Of a DNA stretch of 8,561 bases, positions 1,130-8,561 are shown piece by piece. Source of the DNA: a bacterium (GTDB lineage: Bacteria > UBP15 > UBA6099 > DSWB01); the NCBI GenBank assembly GCA_020061125.1, contig JAGUYV010000102.1, positions 1 to 8,561 on the forward strand. Direction: 5' to 3'. The stretch's first letter is position 1, and every line of letters starts with the position of its first letter. Under the pieces are notes generated by a model. The model saw only the letters and a program-made list of their open reading frames with translations, made no database searches and had not been told where the DNA came from. The position numbers and the translations under genes were made by a program.

Positions 1130-3400
1130 ATGGACCCATCTCCCGAACAGAACCGCGACGATCCCGGCAAACGGTTCGGCCTGGCTTTGTTCTATTTCTT
1201 GACATGCGCGGCTATTGCGGGCGGCGCGACCGCTGTGCGCCTGGCGCTGTGGGACAAGGGCATGAGCGCGAGCGAAGCCCTGGCGTACCAGATAGCAACC
1301 CTGCCCGACGCCGCGGCGGTCGAGGCCCAGGCGCGCACATTCGGGCAGCAGCCTCTGTATTATCTGCTGGCGCACCACTGGATGCGCGTGACGGGCGAGA
1401 GCCTGTTCAACCTGCGGCTGTTTTCCGCACTGTGGGGCGCGGCCTGGCTCATGCTCCTGTATCCCGCTGGCGCGTGGGTTTCCGGCGGACGGCGCACGGG
1501 CGGCTGGCTCGCCATGGCCTTGGCCGCGGTTTCGCCTTTCGCCGCCTACATTTCCCTGCTTGCCGGACCCGACGCCATGCTGGCCGCCCTGGCGCTGGCC
1601 AGCTTCATTGCTTTCCTTGAATTTACACGGAATAAGACGCCCGCGTGGGCCTGGCCCGCATGGGGCGCGGCCACGCTGTTCCTGCTGCTCACGCACCCTC
1701 TGGGCATCGCCGTTCCCTTGTTCCAGGCCGCCGTCATGGCTTTGCTGCGAAAAGACAAAAGCCTGTGGTTCCGCCGCTCGTGGTTCGCGCTCGGGGCAGC
1801 CGTAATTCTTTTTTTCGTGCTTCTGCGGGGTTCCATGCCACCGGATGAGCAGCGGCAGGTGGCGTTCACGCTTCCGGAATCCATGAAGCAGCTTCAGTTG
1901 CTGCTTGCGCTCGCGGGGCTGGGGTTTGTGAACGGAGGCCCGCCCTCCCCGCTCATGACATTCGAGAACTACACGGCGCTGTCGGTGTTTTCGTGCCTGG
2001 CAACGGGCATGGCGTTCGCCTGGGCGCTGCTGCTGCGCCGGAGCGAACCTGAACGAGCGCGCGTACTGATCCTGTTCGCGGCCGTGCCCGCGGGCGTGAT
2101 GTTTTTGGCCAGCGCGTCATTCAAGACCCCGGTCCTGTGGAACAGCTTTGCGTTTTTCAGTTCCGCGGCCTATCTGCTGATTGTGTTTGCGCTTGTGCGC
2201 GGCCGGAGCCGCAGCGCGCGTGCGGCGCTTGCCGCCATTTTGCTTATTGTCAATATCGCCGGCTTTCAGGCGTATGCGCGCGCGCCCCACTTGTCCAGCG
2301 ACTGGCGCGGCGCGTTCGAGCATGCCGCAAAGCATGGCGCGGGAGATGCGCGGCATCCGGAAACACTGTTGAGTCTCGCGCCTCCAGAGCACCGGCCCCT
2401 GACCGCATATTACGCGCAGAGCGAGCCGGGGTTGTCCGTGACTGCCGCGCGCGTGTCGCCCATAGACGGCCGGTTCGAAACCGCGCCCTCGGCGCTCGCC
2501 GCGCAGGCCGCGCATTCCAAAGACTGCTTCTGGATTGTGATTGCAAAGGACACGCTCAAAAAGGAAATGCCGCGCGCGTGGCGCAAACGGTTCTTCAATC
2601 TGCATCACGGGCGCGCATTCCGCAGCGTGTTCACGAATCAGGACCTCTTCGTGGAGCAGCTTTGCGCCAAGGCGTCCACCAAGAGCCTGCGCGCCATGTC
2701 CCTCGAACATTTCACCGCCTTCCTGCTGGCCACGCCGGAAACAGCCAACCCGCTGGATGACCGATACGCGCGCGCCAATTTCTTCTTTGAAAAGGGCTAT
2801 CTGGACATGGCCGAGCGCGAAATGCTCGGCATCAGAAAACAGTACGGGCATCTGCGCGGCATCGGCCTGAACCTGTGCTTCATCTCCCTTGCCAGGGGTC
2901 GGGACGAGAAAGATCCCGGGCGGCTTGAGCAGGCGCTGCCGCTGTGCCGGTCAGCGAAAGAAGACGAACCGCAAAACGCTTATATTGATTCGCTGATCGG
3001 TGAAGTTCTTTTTCATCTCGAACGCTACGCAGAGAGCCGCGCACCGCTCGAAACCGCGATTGGCGACAAAACGCTGTGCAGGGACAATGCCGGCGCGTGC
3101 CTGCGTTCGTCCTATTTCCTGGGCGCGGCCCTGTACCGGCTCGGCGAAAAGGAAGCCGCACTGCCCCACCTCGAAAAAGCCGCAACCGCCACGGACATTG
3201 GCCCCCGCGCATCTTATCTTCTGGGAGTCGCCTATTACGAACTCGGTTATCCCGAAGACGCCATTCCGCATCTCAAACTCGTGATCGGCGCGCAGCCCTT
3301 CGGGGAACACGCGGTGAGGCTTCTGAAACAAATCGAAACCGAGAACCCGGACCTGTTCAAAAAGGAACAAAGAGGCAGATTCCAGATCGAATCTCCATGA
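1130..3400 (+). CDS. GT39/PMT-like membrane glycosyltransferase with C-terminal TPR repeats
   Basis: This 756-residue protein has a short charged cytoplasmic N-terminus, then about 11-12 hydrophobic segments between residues 17 and 380 (for example 17-36, 95-114, 147-164, 216-233, 309-329, 337-356). QQPLYYLLAHHW (73-84) followed by LRLFSALWG (95-103) fits the conserved PPLYY...RL.S loop-and-helix pattern of GT39/ArnT-type GT-C enzymes. DWRGAF (391-396) just after the last helix is also typical of that family. Such enzymes move sugars from lipid carriers on the outer face of the inner membrane. In the first loop the usual acidic pair appears as SE (48-49), so the Asp normally thought catalytic may be missing. 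Residues 617-641, 660-682 and 694-716 form TPR-like helical pairs with G-Y/L-A-P-H-L spacing. ATG 1130 follows an in-frame TGA at 1124; no clear Shine-Dalgarno is visible. Acceptor and sugar are unknown. Confidence 0.72.
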   Translation: MDPSPEQNRDDPGKRFGLALFYFLTCAAIAGGATAVRLALWDKGMSASEALAYQIATLPDAAAVEAQARTFGQQPLYYLLAHHWMRVTGESLFNLRLFSALWGAAWLMLLYPAGAWVSGGRRTGGWLAMALAAVSPFAAYISLLAGPDAMLAALALASFIAFLEFTRNKTPAWAWPAWGAATLFLLLTHPLGIAVPLFQAAVMALLRKDKSLWFRRSWFALGAAVILFFVLLRGSMPPDEQRQVAFTLPESMKQLQLLLALAGLGFVNGGPPSPLMTFENYTALSVFSCLATGMAFAWALLLRRSEPERARVLILFAAVPAGVMFLASASFKTPVLWNSFAFFSSAAYLLIVFALVRGRSRSARAALAAILLIVNIAGFQAYARAPHLSSDWRGAFEHAAKHGAGDARHPETLLSLAPPEHRPLTAYYAQSEPGLSVTAARVSPIDGRFETAPSALAAQAAHSKDCFWIVIAKDTLKKEMPRAWRKRFFNLHHGRAFRSVFTNQDLFVEQLCAKASTKSLRAMSLEHFTAFLLATPETANPLDDRYARANFFFEKGYLDMAEREMLGIRKQYGHLRGIGLNLCFISLARGRDEKDPGRLEQALPLCRSAKEDEPQNAYIDSLIGEVLFHLERYAESRAPLETAIGDKTLCRDNAGACLRSSYFLGAALYRLGEKEAALPHLEKAATATDIGPRASYLLGVAYYELGYPEDAIPHLKLVIGAQPFGEHAVRLLKQIETENPDLFKKEQRGRFQIESP

Positions 3401-3419: not shown

Positions 3420-5426
3420 TCAGTTTATTGGCAGAGTGAAAGAAAAAACGCTTCCCTTGCCGGGTTCGCTTTCGGCCCAGATGCGGCCCCCGTGCAACTC
3501 CACAAGCTCCCTGGAAATGGCCAGCCCCAGGCCCGTGCCCGGATATTCGCGCCCATCGCGCCGGTCCACCTGATAAAACCTGTCGAAAATATGCGAAAGT
3601 TCATGCCTGGGCATGCCGATGCCCGTGTCGGACACGGACACAATCACATGGTTCGCGTCCTGTGGATGGGAGATGCGGATGGTTATGGTTCCGCCTGACG
3701 GGGTGAACTTGATGGCGTTGCCCACGAGGTTGAACAGAATCTGTCCCAAGCGCTCGCTGTCCGCGTTCACGCGCGGCAGGTGCTCGGGCACGCTCATGAG
3801 GATCTGCAGCCTGCTCTGGCGCAGGCGTTCGCTGAACACCTCCTCCACGGTGCGCAGTTCATGCGCCAGATCCACATAGCGGCGGCGCAGTTCGAGGCGG
3901 CCTGCGTCCAGCCGCGACAGGCTCAAGAGGTCCGCAATCAGTTCCTGCAGGTTGCGTCCGCGCCGCAGCACAACTTCGAGAGCTTCGCGCTGATTGTCGC
4001 TGATCTCGCCCAGCGCGCCTTCCAGAAACATGGACACATAGCCAATGATGGTGGTGAGCGGGGTCTTGAGTTCGTGCGACACCGTGGACAGAAATGTGTC
4101 CTTTACCTCGTTGGCTTTCTGGAGCTTGATATTGCTGTCAAGCAACTGCTGGTTCACCTTTTCCAGTTCGCGCGAGTACATTTCCAGGCTGGCGTGCGCG
4201 CTTTTGAGGCGCGTGGAATAATCCTCGACCTGCTGCTTGGACTGGCGCATTTCCCGCATGCTCTGGCTCAAGCGCGCGGCCATGACATTGAACGATTCGG
4301 CGAGCTGCGCGATTTCGTCGTGTCCCGAGGCCTCGATGCGAAAATCCATGTTGCCGCGCCCAATCTGCTCCGCGCCCTTTTGCAAATTTCTGATGGGGCC
4401 GGTGATGCGGCGCGTGATTACAAGCCCCAAGAGCATGGCCAGAAGCAATCCGATGACGGAATAGAAGATTGTATTTTTGAGCATCTGGGAGCGCGCCGAG
4501 GCGATGAATGCGGTGCTGGTCCGCAGCTCGAACACCGCGGCCACGGAACCGTCCAGGGCGCGCAATTTCATATACCCGCCTATTTCGCCGCGGTCGAGGA
4601 AGTTGCGGATACGCCTTTCCGCGGTCTTGCCTCCGGTGAAGAATTCGCGGGGCAGCGTGGGAATCCAGTTCTCGCGCGTGGAATTCACGAGTCCGTCCAC
4701 GGTGTACACGCTGGCCACGCCACCGGTACGCCCGAAAATGTCGCGGAGCACATCGTCTTCGCCATTGAAGTAATATCCAGCGATCACCGCGCCCACGGCG
4801 TCGCTGCGTCCGTCGCCGGGCAATGCGTTCGAGGCGTCCGGCGCGCGGAACACGGGCGCCGCCACTTTGAGCACAAGCCCGGGCGGACCGCCCCCGGGGC
4901 CGGGGAGCGGGTTTTCTATCAGCCCCTCTTCCCAAAGCGCCGTCGCATCCATGAGCGCATATCCCGCGGCGCTGCGCCCCTTGAGCGCTTCCTGCACAAA
5001 GGAATCCGATGACAGGTTGTAGCCGAGAGTCTCGAATTCATTACCGCTGCGAAACAGCACATCCCCGTTTCCGTCCACAATGGTCAGAAAACTGACTTCG
5101 GCGCGGTCCGCGTCGGAGAGCGAATTCTTGCCCACGCCCTTGATCATCTCGGCTTTGGCGGGCGCCTGGATGTCATGCGCCAGAATGCGGCCGAGATACA
5201 TGTTGTGGGATACGGAACGCGCCACGCGCGTGAGGGTGCGTTTCTTGCGGTCCAGCACCAGGGAGCAGACTTCGAGATCCGAGATCATGCGCCGCCGGGC
5301 TTCTTCGTGGATGCGGCCGTACAGGGCGCGCACCTGCAGGATGGTGGGAATGCTGGTTGCGCCGAGAACCACCAGGATGAAGGCCACGACCAGCCTTGTT
5401 CCCAGAGATGTTTGGAATGATTTCAT
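3420..5426 (-). CDS. Membrane sensor histidine kinase (Cache-like sensor, HAMP, HisKA, HATPase_c)
   Basis: This 668-residue protein has a first membrane helix at 11-31 and a periplasmic sensor at about 32-315. The sensor has Cache-like features: TIVDGNGDVLFRSG (115-128) and LVLKVAAPVF followed by VGAVIAGYYF (211-220). A second helix lies at 318-337, HAMP at 338-390 and a coiled coil at about 385-442. In the H-box FLSTVSHELKTPL the phosphorylated His is residue 451. The ATPase domain has an N-box around NLVGNAIKF (566-574), G1 DTGIGMP (600-606), F-box FDRFYQVD (614-621) and G2 GTGLGLA (630-636), so all catalytic boxes are intact. There is no receiver domain, and no response regulator in the window. 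A Pro/Gly-rich stretch (173-182) interrupts the sensor and is probably a loop. It is the last gene of the transporter operon, 33 bases after the aldolase gene, so it may sense the transported compound or the loaded binding protein. Its ligand is not known. Confidence 0.93.
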   Translation of the reverse strand: MKSFQTSLGTRLVVAFILVVLGATSIPTILQVRALYGRIHEEARRRMISDLEVCSLVLDRKKRTLTRVARSVSHNMYLGRILAHDIQAPAKAEMIKGVGKNSLSDADRAEVSFLTIVDGNGDVLFRSGNEFETLGYNLSSDSFVQEALKGRSAAGYALMDATALWEEGLIENPLPGPGGGPPGLVLKVAAPVFRAPDASNALPGDGRSDAVGAVIAGYYFNGEDDVLRDIFGRTGGVASVYTVDGLVNSTRENWIPTLPREFFTGGKTAERRIRNFLDRGEIGGYMKLRALDGSVAAVFELRTSTAFIASARSQMLKNTIFYSVIGLLLAMLLGLVITRRITGPIRNLQKGAEQIGRGNMDFRIEASGHDEIAQLAESFNVMAARLSQSMREMRQSKQQVEDYSTRLKSAHASLEMYSRELEKVNQQLLDSNIKLQKANEVKDTFLSTVSHELKTPLTTIIGYVSMFLEGALGEISDNQREALEVVLRRGRNLQELIADLLSLSRLDAGRLELRRRYVDLAHELRTVEEVFSERLRQSRLQILMSVPEHLPRVNADSERLGQILFNLVGNAIKFTPSGGTITIRISHPQDANHVIVSVSDTGIGMPRHELSHIFDRFYQVDRRDGREYPGTGLGLAISRELVELHGGRIWAESEPGKGSVFSFTLPIN

Positions 5427-5459: not shown

Positions 5460-6368
5460 TCAGATCAGGCCCATCTGCTTCATTTCCATGCGGATGGCGG
5501 CGCGCTCCGGCTCGTGGAACCTGTCGAACGCTCCGCTCATCTGGTCCGAACAAATGCCCATCAGAGACAACGCGGTTTTCACGCCCTTCAAGTAACTGCT
5601 CCAGAAGCGGCCGTGCCGGTAGAGGCTGTTCAGATAAATAACCTGTGCCTGAAGCCGGTCCACGGTTTTGAAATCGCGCTTTCTTGCGGCGTTGTACAGA
5701 TTCACAAACAGGTCCGGGGCGATGTTCGCTCCACCGGGGATACCGCCCGCTCCATGGAACAGCACAGCCTCTGCGATGAGCGTTTCCACGCCGATGAATA
5801 CATGGAAATCCGGGCGGTTTTTGAAATGCTGCAGCAGGCCCTGAAGGTAAGTCATGTCCCCGTGGCTGTCCTTGATGCCTGCGACGCGCTCGTTGGCGCT
5901 GATGCGCACCACAATGTCATGGTCGAGATGCGTTTTGGTGAGCGACGGGATGTTGTAAAGTAACAGGGGCAGCCTGGAGTTCGACGCCACCCTGCCATAG
6001 AAATCCACAAGTTCGTCGCCGCCGAGCGGGTAATAAAACGGCGGCAGCACCACCACGGCGTCGCCCCCGATCCGTTCCACCAGTTCGATGTTTTTTATCA
6101 CCTGCAGATATGACGGATCGCTGACTCCGGCGTACACGGGCACGCGGCCGTTCACTTCCTCGACCGCGGTCTCAATCACGGCTTTTTTCATGGCCGGGGT
6201 CAGGGACGGAAATTCGCCCGTGCTGCCAAGCACGAAGACGCCGTGCACGCCTCCGTCCAGCACATGGTTCACCAGCCGGCGCAGCCCGGCGCGGTCCACG
6301 CGGTCCGGCTTGATCAAAGGGGTCACCAGCGGGGGAATGATGCCGTGCATTTTTTTGATTTTCGCCAT
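5460..6368 (-). CDS. DapA/NanA-family class I aldolase or lyase, probably not a true DapA
   Basis: The 302-residue length is normal for this TIM-barrel family. HGIIPPLVTPL (8-18) is the conserved first strand. GSTGE (48-52) is the carboxylate-binding loop. The Tyr of LYNIP (Tyr138) and Lys166 in GIKDSHGD are the catalytic Tyr and the Schiff-base Lys. GGIPGGANIAP (208-218) is the family's late glycine loop. In authentic dihydrodipicolinate synthase YNVP is followed by S/G-R-T, whose Arg holds the dicarboxylate end; here the sequence is YNIPSLT, so that position is Leu143. The first loop reads GST, as in N-acetylneuraminate lyase, rather than GTT. Both points favour a pyruvate-dependent sugar-acid or hydroxy-oxo-acid aldolase/dehydratase over lysine synthesis. 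The gene lies 21 bases after tctA and before the kinase, consistent with catabolism of the transported compound. ATG 6368 has only a weak upstream GGGA. The exact substrate cannot be read from sequence. Confidence 0.9.
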   Translation of the reverse strand: MAKIKKMHGIIPPLVTPLIKPDRVDRAGLRRLVNHVLDGGVHGVFVLGSTGEFPSLTPAMKKAVIETAVEEVNGRVPVYAGVSDPSYLQVIKNIELVERIGGDAVVVLPPFYYPLGGDELVDFYGRVASNSRLPLLLYNIPSLTKTHLDHDIVVRISANERVAGIKDSHGDMTYLQGLLQHFKNRPDFHVFIGVETLIAEAVLFHGAGGIPGGANIAPDLFVNLYNAARKRDFKTVDRLQAQVIYLNSLYRHGRFWSSYLKGVKTALSLMGICSDQMSGAFDRFHEPERAAIRMEMKQMGLI

Positions 6369-6389: not shown

Positions 6390-7907
6390 TTATGTCTGTG
6401 TGCCGTCCTTGGCTTCAAGTTTGCGGGCGCGCTGCTCCTGAATCCACGGGACCAGCACGCTTAACACGGCCAGAACCAGCAGGCCCAGGGCGATGGGCGA
6501 CTTGAACATGGCCGCCGCATTTCCTCCGCTGATGCTCAAAGCGCGGTGCAGGTTGGCTTCGGCGATTGGACCCAGAATCACTCCCAGAATCAATGGGCCG
6601 GGAGGGAACCCGAGCTTTTTCATCGCATATCCGAACACGCCGAACGCGAGCATGATGTACACGGACATCATGGTGCCGGTCATGGCGAACGAACCGACCA
6701 CGCAGAACACCATGACCAGGGGCCAGAGGAAATGCGGCGCGATGGCCACGGTGCGCGAGAACAGGGGCGCGCCCAGAAGCCGCACCGGAAGCACGAGAAT
6801 ATTCGCGGCCATCAGCCCCGCGAAGATTCCCGTGACCAGAATCTGCACCTTGGGGTCGGGGTTGTCAAAAAGTGTCGGCCCCGGCTGCAGGCCAAGGATG
6901 ATCATGGCTCCGAGAAGAATGGCTGTGACCGAGTCGCCGGGGATGCCAAGCGTCATCATGGGAATCATGGCGCCGCCGGTCACGGCGTTGTTCGCGCTTT
7001 CGCTGGCCGCTACGCCCTCTATGGATCCTTTGCCGAATTCTTCCTTGTGCCGGGACGCCTTTTTCGTCTGGTCGTAGGCCACGAACCCGGCGATGTCGCC
7101 GCCCGCACCGGGTATTGCGCCGATGAGCGTGCCGATCACGCTGCTGATGCCGAGCGGTGCGAGGAGCCGTTTCATTTGCTCTCGGGTTGGAAACATTCGC
7201 GTGATCGCCGTTGCGCCTCGCTCCGGGGGACGCAGGGTTTCCACCTGCGAAAGCGCTTCGGTGACCGCGAACACGCCGATCATGAGCGGGATGTACCGCA
7301 GGTCCGATTCCGGCAGGTTCGGGATGCCAAAGGTGAGCCGATCCACATCGAACACCGCGCTTCGGCCCGCGGACGCGAACAGCATGCCCAGCGCGCCCAT
7401 AATCAGGCCCTTTAGAATCGAGCCTTCGCTGACTCCGGCGATGATGCTCAAGCCGAACACGGCGAGGCAGAACATCTCGAACGGGCCGAAACCCAGGGCG
7501 AACCCGGCGATGGGCTGCGCCACGGTGATGAGGATGATCGTGGAGAACACGCCGCCAACCGTGGAGGCGATGGACGATACATTGAGCGCCAAAGCGGCCT
7601 TGCCCTGCTGCGCGAGCGGGAACCCGTCGAATACCGTGGCCGCGGCCGCGGGCGTGCCGGGAGTGCGGATCAGGATCGCGCTGATCGCCCCGCCGTGCAT
7701 GGCGCCCACATACACGCCCAGCAGCACCATCATGCCCGCCAGCGGCGGATGAATTTTGAAGGTGAACGGCACCAGGAGCGCGATGGACATGGTGGCCGTC
7801 AGCCCGGGCAGCGCGCCCGCGAGGATGCCCGCGATCAGGCCGGCCAGCATGTACAACATCACCCGCGCCGTGAACAGCGTTTCAAGCGCTTCGCCAAGAT
7901 GCTCCAC
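6390..7907 (-). CDS. tctA: TctA, large permease subunit of a tripartite tricarboxylate transporter
   Basis: The 505-residue length is normal for TctA. The family's conserved blocks are all present: GILAGALPGLTATM (27-40), GVYVGAMHGGAISAIL (64-79), RTPGTPAAAATVFDG (81-95), GAIPGAGGDIAGF (263-275), and the long block FGKGSIEGVAASESANNAV (291-309) leading to IPMMTLGIPGD (315-325). Alternating hydrophobic segments run through the protein, ending in a charged cytoplasmic tail. TctA is the channel-forming subunit in the inner membrane. It works with TctB and the periplasmic binding protein TctC, driven by an ion gradient, to import carboxylates. The start is a GTG, chosen because GGAGG lies 7 bases upstream and an in-frame TGA at 7911-7913 rules out a longer form. 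Only 3 bases separate it from the preceding stop codon, which suggests translational coupling. The substrate (citrate, other carboxylate, or sugar acid) is not determined. Confidence 0.95.
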   Translation of the reverse strand: MEHLGEALETLFTARVMLYMLAGLIAGILAGALPGLTATMSIALLVPFTFKIHPPLAGMMVLLGVYVGAMHGGAISAILIRTPGTPAAAATVFDGFPLAQQGKAALALNVSSIASTVGGVFSTIILITVAQPIAGFALGFGPFEMFCLAVFGLSIIAGVSEGSILKGLIMGALGMLFASAGRSAVFDVDRLTFGIPNLPESDLRYIPLMIGVFAVTEALSQVETLRPPERGATAITRMFPTREQMKRLLAPLGISSVIGTLIGAIPGAGGDIAGFVAYDQTKKASRHKEEFGKGSIEGVAASESANNAVTGGAMIPMMTLGIPGDSVTAILLGAMIILGLQPGPTLFDNPDPKVQILVTGIFAGLMAANILVLPVRLLGAPLFSRTVAIAPHFLWPLVMVFCVVGSFAMTGTMMSVYIMLAFGVFGYAMKKLGFPPGPLILGVILGPIAEANLHRALSISGGNAAAMFKSPIALGLLVLAVLSVLVPWIQEQRARKLEAKDGTQT

Positions 7908-7910
7908 GCA

Positions 7911-8561
7911 TCAGCCTCCAAGCAGCCCGCGGATAAATTCATCCACGGGGCCTTCAATCACTGGCACATTCAAAAACACGCCGAACAGCCAGTACACGCC
8001 CAGGCCCGCAACCATGCAGAATATCGCGCCCGCGGCCCACGCCCATGCGCCGCCTCGCGGCTTGAGCATCAGAAAACTTGCCCCGAGAAACGCCACGGTG
8101 GACGCGACATAGCCCACGCGCGTAAGCAGGAATATGTACAGGCAAAGCAGCGCGAAAAATCCGATCATCAACCCGGCGTGCGGCCCGAACAATGGTTGCT
8201 TATCAGCTTCGGGTTTGCGCGTGAACAGGTTTGATGCTATCAGCAGCGCCGTTAGCGCGCAAATCAGACCAATCAAAGCGCGCGGAAACGACATCACGCC
8301 CAGGCCCCGCGCCTGTTCGTGTTCCTCCATGGGAGCGGACCCGAGCAGCGCACCGAACGAGCGGTCTTCTTCTTGCGCGAAGGCCAGAAATGCGTCTGCG
8401 TCCTGCCAGGCCAGCGACACCCCGCGACGCGCACACGCCTCCTGAAACTCCGGCGAATCAAAACCCTTCTTGAAACTGTCCGTGAGAATTTTCTTGATTT
8501 CGCGGGGAGTTCCCCGGGGCACGCCCAGCCCGCCCCAGGCGCCGGCCTCGACATCAAAGCC
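7911..8561 (-). CDS. tctB: TctC-TctB in-frame fusion (binding-protein C-terminus joined to small membrane subunit), 5' end missing
   Basis: The frame is open to the right window edge and gives 216 residues here. Residues 1-73 (from the edge) read as the end of a Bug/TctC periplasmic binding protein: GFDVEAGAWGGLGVPRGTP (1-19), a helix with DSPEFQEACARRGV (35-48), and DADAFLAFAQEEDR (54-67). With no stop codon, a linker (about 74-93) leads into a TctB-like part with four hydrophobic segments at about 95-113, 131-147, 150-167 and 174-197, including LTRVGYVAS between the second and third and NVPV after the last, as in TctB. Possible internal starts are ATG at 8330 and ATG at 8294; neither has a well-spaced Shine-Dalgarno. 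TctB is the small subunit that joins TctA. Positive charges fall after helices 1 and 3, favouring a periplasmic N-terminus, which suits a tethered TctC. A lost stop codon or a sequencing error remains possible. Confidence 0.85.
   Translation of the reverse strand, partial: GFDVEAGAWGGLGVPRGTPREIKKILTDSFKKGFDSPEFQEACARRGVSLAWQDADAFLAFAQEEDRSFGALLGSAPMEEHEQARGLGVMSFPRALIGLICALTALLIASNLFTRKPEADKQPLFGPHAGLMIGFFALLCLYIFLLTRVGYVASTVAFLGASFLMLKPRGGAWAWAAGAIFCMVAGLGVYWLFGVFLNVPVIEGPVDEFIRGLLGG
7915..7919 (-). promoter_or_regulatory. Shine-Dalgarno that fixes the GTG start of tctA
   Basis: On the minus strand GGAGG is embedded in the last codons of the TctC-TctB frame (GGA GGC TGA) and stands 7 bases before the GTG at 7907. 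An ATG overlapping the TGA (TGATG) is out of frame with tctA, so the GTG is the working start. Confidence 0.75.

Follow-up and report, generated by a model that had tools for sequence, protein, structure and literature searches.

A probable TctC-TctB fusion lacking the first TctB helix in a tripartite tricarboxylate transporter operon, with counterparts in other lineages

The window, by which we mean the whole stretch of DNA analyzed (8,561 nucleotides), is an entire contig (G000:C58) of a MAG that comprises 4.1 Mb in 513 contigs and is 78.8% complete. A gene fragment entering from the contig end (positions 1-1067) and a gene for a glycosyltransferase-like membrane protein that ends in a TPR tail (1130-3400) lie on the plus strand, opposite to an operon encoded on the minus strand. 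The operon includes the gene for TctA, the large membrane subunit of tripartite tricarboxylate transporters (TTTs), at 6390..7907; Pfam matches it over the full profile (PF01970, 1-423 of 423, E = 1e-137). Beyond tctA lies a gene for an enzyme of the dihydrodipicolinate synthase (DHDPS)/N-acetylneuraminate lyase superfamily (5460..6368, Pfam DHDPS, E = 1e-53), for which no NCBIfam equivalog cutoff was reached and which is a probable operon partner of the transporter genes. A sensor histidine kinase gene (3420..5426; HAMP, HisKA, and HATPase_c domains by Pfam) follows in the same direction, 33 bases beyond the DHDPS-superfamily gene; no response regulator gene was noticed in the window.

On the other side of tctA, the minus strand is open for 216 codons, from the contig end at 8561 to a stop at 7911, and tctA begins 3 bases past this stop codon in the same direction. 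The C-terminal part of TctC, the Bug-type solute receptor, is truncated where the contig stops and occupies 8343..8561 (residues 4 to 72; Pfam profile positions 200-268 of 274, E = 5.5e-5). TctB, the small membrane subunit, follows in the same frame at 7911..8318, stop codon included (residues 82 to 200; profile positions 22-135 of 137, E = 6.9e-14). The TctB match (PF07331) scores 52.6 bits against a cutoff of 29.1, with profile positions 1-21, which represent the first transmembrane helix (TM1), missing. The TctC match covers the C-terminal 69 positions only and scores 23.3 bits, below the 27-bit whole-domain cutoff, because the contig end leaves the C terminus alone. With purpose-built profiles, the TctC match ends at position 301 of 305 and the TctB match begins at position 18 of 144. 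Both Pfam domains thus lie within 8561-7911, which confirms the claim of an earlier sequence-only reading that TctC and TctB share a single uninterrupted frame. A stop-free frame by itself is cheap evidence; in the window, the residues themselves are TctC, the last ∼70 of the receptor preceding TctB. The receptor of a TTT is usually a separate, free protein, a trait that is common in these systems and does not define their sequence families; here, no stop separates it from TctB.

Because the frame runs off the contig end, the N terminus of TctC and its signal peptide lie outside the visible sequence. A genome-wide search of the MAG returned no second match to TctC and none to TctB; thus, the front part of the window TctC is simply unassembled.

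The junction, from the last TctC helix to the "FP" motif of TctB (FGALLGSAPMEEHEQARGLGVMSFP; 8286..8355, minus strand), places 23 residues (69 nt) between the two anchors and contains no hydrophobic helix. The sequence-only reading had described a linker of about 20 residues, and its estimate of the length was sound; it had overlooked that TM1 of TctB is missing from this linker. In an alignment with TctB of the nearest relative of the window (G001, same order), the first hydrophobic helix of the relative (DVIAGASMAGFSALIYGMTK) has no counterpart, and the TctC tail occupies its place. The best 19-residue hydropathy before the FP motif is 0.32 in the window versus at least 1.13 in separate TctB frames (median, 2.06; n = 88, including a few loci fetched twice). 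The linker codons ATG GAG GAA (8322-8330, minus strand) contain the string GGAGGAA, possibly left over from the ribosome-binding site that an ancestral, separate tctB once had.

In G001, tctC and tctB are separate genes. Its TctA is 74% identical to that of the window, its TctC is 46% identical in the aligned portion, and its TctB is 45 to 46% identical to the window TctB, which the genome search places at 7962-8318. In G001 (L155:174-1226 and L156:5486-5989), tctC is on a different contig from the tctB-tctA pair, and the receptor gene appears to be unlinked. The sequence-only reading had named orthologues with separate tctC and tctB as grounds for abandoning a fusion. G001 supplies such orthologues to the letter, and what they indicate is a fusion that is probably derived relative to G001, not one that is false.

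The sequence-only reading had also proposed looking for the same Bug-TctB architecture in related genomes. A direct scan of the genome contigs with the window protein did not find the same fusion, and a second fusion was absent from 80 TctA-anchored loci taken from genome contigs. We then relied on a chimeric profile, composed of the TctC C terminus and TctB without TM1, in which a true fusion gives one match over both halves; for the larger genome sets, the best 8 to 10 candidates per genome were scored. At the thresholds used, no uninterrupted two-half match was retrieved from the class of G105 (0/369 genomes), the class of G104 (0/385), the phylum of G115 (0/95), or the phylum of G099 (0/297). 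In Planctomycetota, the phylum of G098, the fusion was found in 12 of 294 sampled genomes. Sampling 386 genomes across the domain brought in two further genera (two genomes), both of the family f146. The search therefore recovered full-length fusions in 12 Planctomycetota and two f146 genomes.

Several other candidates were rejected. The third fused match of the domain-wide sample duplicated a planctomycete locus that was already in the set. In G105, stops separate the frames of two clustered matches, and in G871 both domains are spanned in one frame, but a stop sits between them. Eight fetched candidates (308 to 714 amino acids) with long open frames upstream of or around tctB proved to be wrong-frame chance open reading frames. 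TctB matches within frames of 660 to 714 amino acids (G110, G107, G117, G115, and G1733) may represent TctB-TctA fusions; L098, checked among such frames, was a chance frame.

All 14 full-length loci (L142 to L153, L177, and L178) encode a hydrophobic N terminus ending in a cysteine, then TctC, then TctB, with tctA adjoining. The TctC/Bug receptor domain (PF03401) is present in these relatives: in the six proteins scanned with Pfam, the TctC match runs from position 2-3 to 248-266 of the profile and the TctB match from 22-27 to 137, the latter start being 22 in the window. With the purpose-built profile, TctB of the 14 loci begins at position 16-34 of 144. TM1 is missing from 15/15 fusions, the window included (19-residue hydropathy of ≤0.77), and present in 88/88 separate TctB frames. 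Four Planctomycetota genomes carry the fused gene on contigs of 7.2 to 8.3 Mb; thus, the fused genes are not joining errors in those genomes. Measured from one fixed residue in the final helix of TctC, the distance to the FP motif could be scored in 14 of the 15 fusions (all except L152): it is 69 nt in the window and L153 and 66 nt in the other twelve. The same anchors in separate operons (n = 72) are 157 to 400 nt apart (median, 248), with frames mixed (29/23/20). That lineages so different share this spacing points to a functional constraint. The N-terminal cysteine gives the full-length fusions a lipoprotein-like appearance, and a lipid at one end and TctB at the other may together anchor their receptors.

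Phylogenetic analysis placed the fusions apart from one another. The window groups with the unfused G001 both in the TctA tree (support, 100/100) and in a tree of TctC plus TctB (100/99). In the TctA trees, the planctomycete fusions make up a separate clade with full support, and a third place is taken by f146; a single fused clade is rejected (AU test, P = 0.0002 and 2e-57). When the tree was built from the fused gene itself (191 columns covering the TctC end and TctB), the same three places emerged and a single clade was again rejected (P = 0.001); the rejection was weaker for a clade of the window and the planctomycetes alone (P = 0.03). Horizontal transfer of a single fused gene is ruled out by these trees of the fused gene. 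On this phylogenetic evidence, there is more than one origin of the fusion: the well-supported branches force two changes, and the third place depends on weaker forks. If the fusion did not arise late in the window lineage, G001 would have to have lost and then regained a separate TctB; such a scenario would need the return of the lost TctB helix.

Taken together, these results make it quite likely that the gene is a real TctC-TctB fusion (TctCB) and that it encodes a TTT with one tethered receptor per transporter. The sequence-only reading had suggested that, as a single chain, the binding protein would be tethered to the membrane complex; strong support for this suggestion comes from the full-length fusions whose junctions have the same geometry, some of them on chromosome-sized contigs. 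We infer that in the window organism the frame is translated as one chain and that the product would function in transport. The C-terminal helix of the secreted TctC domain would lead, via the linker of ∼23 residues between the anchors, into the second transmembrane helix of TctB, with the receptor in the place of TM1. By prediction, the TctB chain begins in the cytoplasm (PMC5812351), so that the second helix enters the membrane from the periplasm, and a receptor domain replacing TM1 would therefore lie on the correct side of the membrane. This topology draws on family knowledge and hydropathy. The receptor would be held in the periplasm by a covalent link, one receptor to each TctA-TctB translocator. 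The window protein presumably also carries an N-terminal signal or a lipid anchor, features visible only in the relatives. At high local concentration, with one receptor per transporter, ligand would be passed to its partner TctA by local tethered motion rather than by diffusion from a free pool. The expected kinetic consequence would be a change from a scavenging pool to a single dedicated receptor for each transporter.

An artefact of assembly or sequencing could also yield such a frame, if ∼90 to 180 bases or more, containing the stop codon of tctC as well as the start and TM1 of tctB, had been dropped and the frame were open by chance. The window copy is known from one incomplete MAG, on an 8.6-kb contig that is one of 513 and ends inside tctC; the nearest relative has separate genes, and a random deletion preserves the frame one time in three. 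However, the 69 nt of the window match the spacing measured in 13 fusions of the two further lineages (66 to 69 nt), whereas separate operons have at least 157 nt. By a rough reckoning, only one random deletion in about a hundred would give such a spacing in frame, and the same architecture occurs on 7- to 8-Mb contigs of other genomes. We consequently regard an artefact as unlikely. A natural deletion may instead have fused the genes at a decaying locus, whose product would be no working transporter. Deletions can create in-frame fusions, and relative to G001 the fused state is probably the derived one. Decay is nevertheless difficult to reconcile with an intact, closely adjoining tctA that retains its high identity to that of G001, with the motifs kept in the TctB part, or with the codon-position G+C pattern, which continues unbroken across the linker. 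In Planctomycetota, moreover, the fusion has been maintained over deep divergence. This reading is very improbable.

The sequence-only reading had itself raised the possibility that TctB is made from an internal start. The read-through from TctC would then be incidental, and TctB would come mainly from one of two in-frame ATGs within the junction, at 8330 and 8294, with GGAGGAA nearby in the linker. That string overlaps and follows the ATG at 8330 and lies ∼27 bases before the ATG at 8294, both of which are wrong for a ribosome-binding site. Moreover, the resulting TctB would still lack TM1, and with no stop between the domains the fused chain would be made anyway. We give internal initiation only a very slim chance, the smallest of those considered here, and favor a genuine tethered fusion.

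The known systems that most resemble this arrangement differ from it in instructive ways. Classical TTTs (TctCBA; PMC5812351) share with the window the TctC, TctB, and TctA domains, the order tctC-B-A, and a nearby sensor kinase gene; in the window, unlike in those systems, receptor and small membrane subunit form one chain and TctB lacks TM1. TctB proteins have been described with four to five transmembrane segments, and the only TTT fusions mentioned in the same review are rare TctA-TctB proteins (PMC5812351). A literature search found no description of a TctC-TctB fusion, although absence there is no proof. TRAP P-Q fusions, which are very rare, likewise join a receptor to the small membrane subunit in a transporter driven by ions (PMC8276074), but TRAP transporters and TTTs share no sequence similarity (PMC5812351). 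Pfam matched only TctC and TctB in the fused frame, with no DctP/TAXI receptor and no DctQ domain. In the TAXI-GltS fusions of Lachnospiraceae, an N-terminal receptor domain is also fused to a secondary transporter, but the receptor belongs to another family and is joined straight to the translocator, without involvement of a small subunit (PMC12344293). ABC importers with fused substrate-binding domains, such as GlnPQ and OpuA, also tether the receptor to the translocator, but they are ATP driven and their membrane domains are unrelated (PMC8025302); an ATP-binding subunit and an ABC membrane domain are absent from the window genes scanned with Pfam, and the resemblance would be one of operation only. 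Receptor tethering as an idea is therefore not new, given the ABC, TRAP P-Q, and TAXI-GltS examples; the TTT variant and the convergent exchange of a helix for a receptor appear to be.

We lean toward a broader interpretation, with less assurance than for the fusion itself. Fusion of TctC to TctB with loss of TM1 would be a recurrent, convergent design in at least three lineages, with a fixed spacing of 22 to 23 residues. It would define a two-gene class of TTT with an obligate one-to-one tethered receptor, in which TM1 is dispensable and the receptor C terminus sits beside the second transmembrane helix of TctB. A search of solved structures gave no match for TctA and only chance matches for the TctB part. 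The invariant spacing in natural fusions would pin the site of the receptor C terminus and suggests that the first TctB helix is not needed. These fusions also offer a natural way to test if an excess of free receptor is required by a secondary transporter that depends on a binding protein.

Finally, the gene neighborhoods bear on what is transported. The fused tctCB genes of f146 (L177 and L178) lie near genes for RraA-like aldolase and mandelate-racemase-like enzymes, hinting at sugar-acid uptake. Because these enzymes adjoin the f146 fusions and an aldolase-superfamily enzyme adjoins the window transporter, the substrate of the latter is probably a carboxylate or sugar acid that is handled by the neighboring enzyme.
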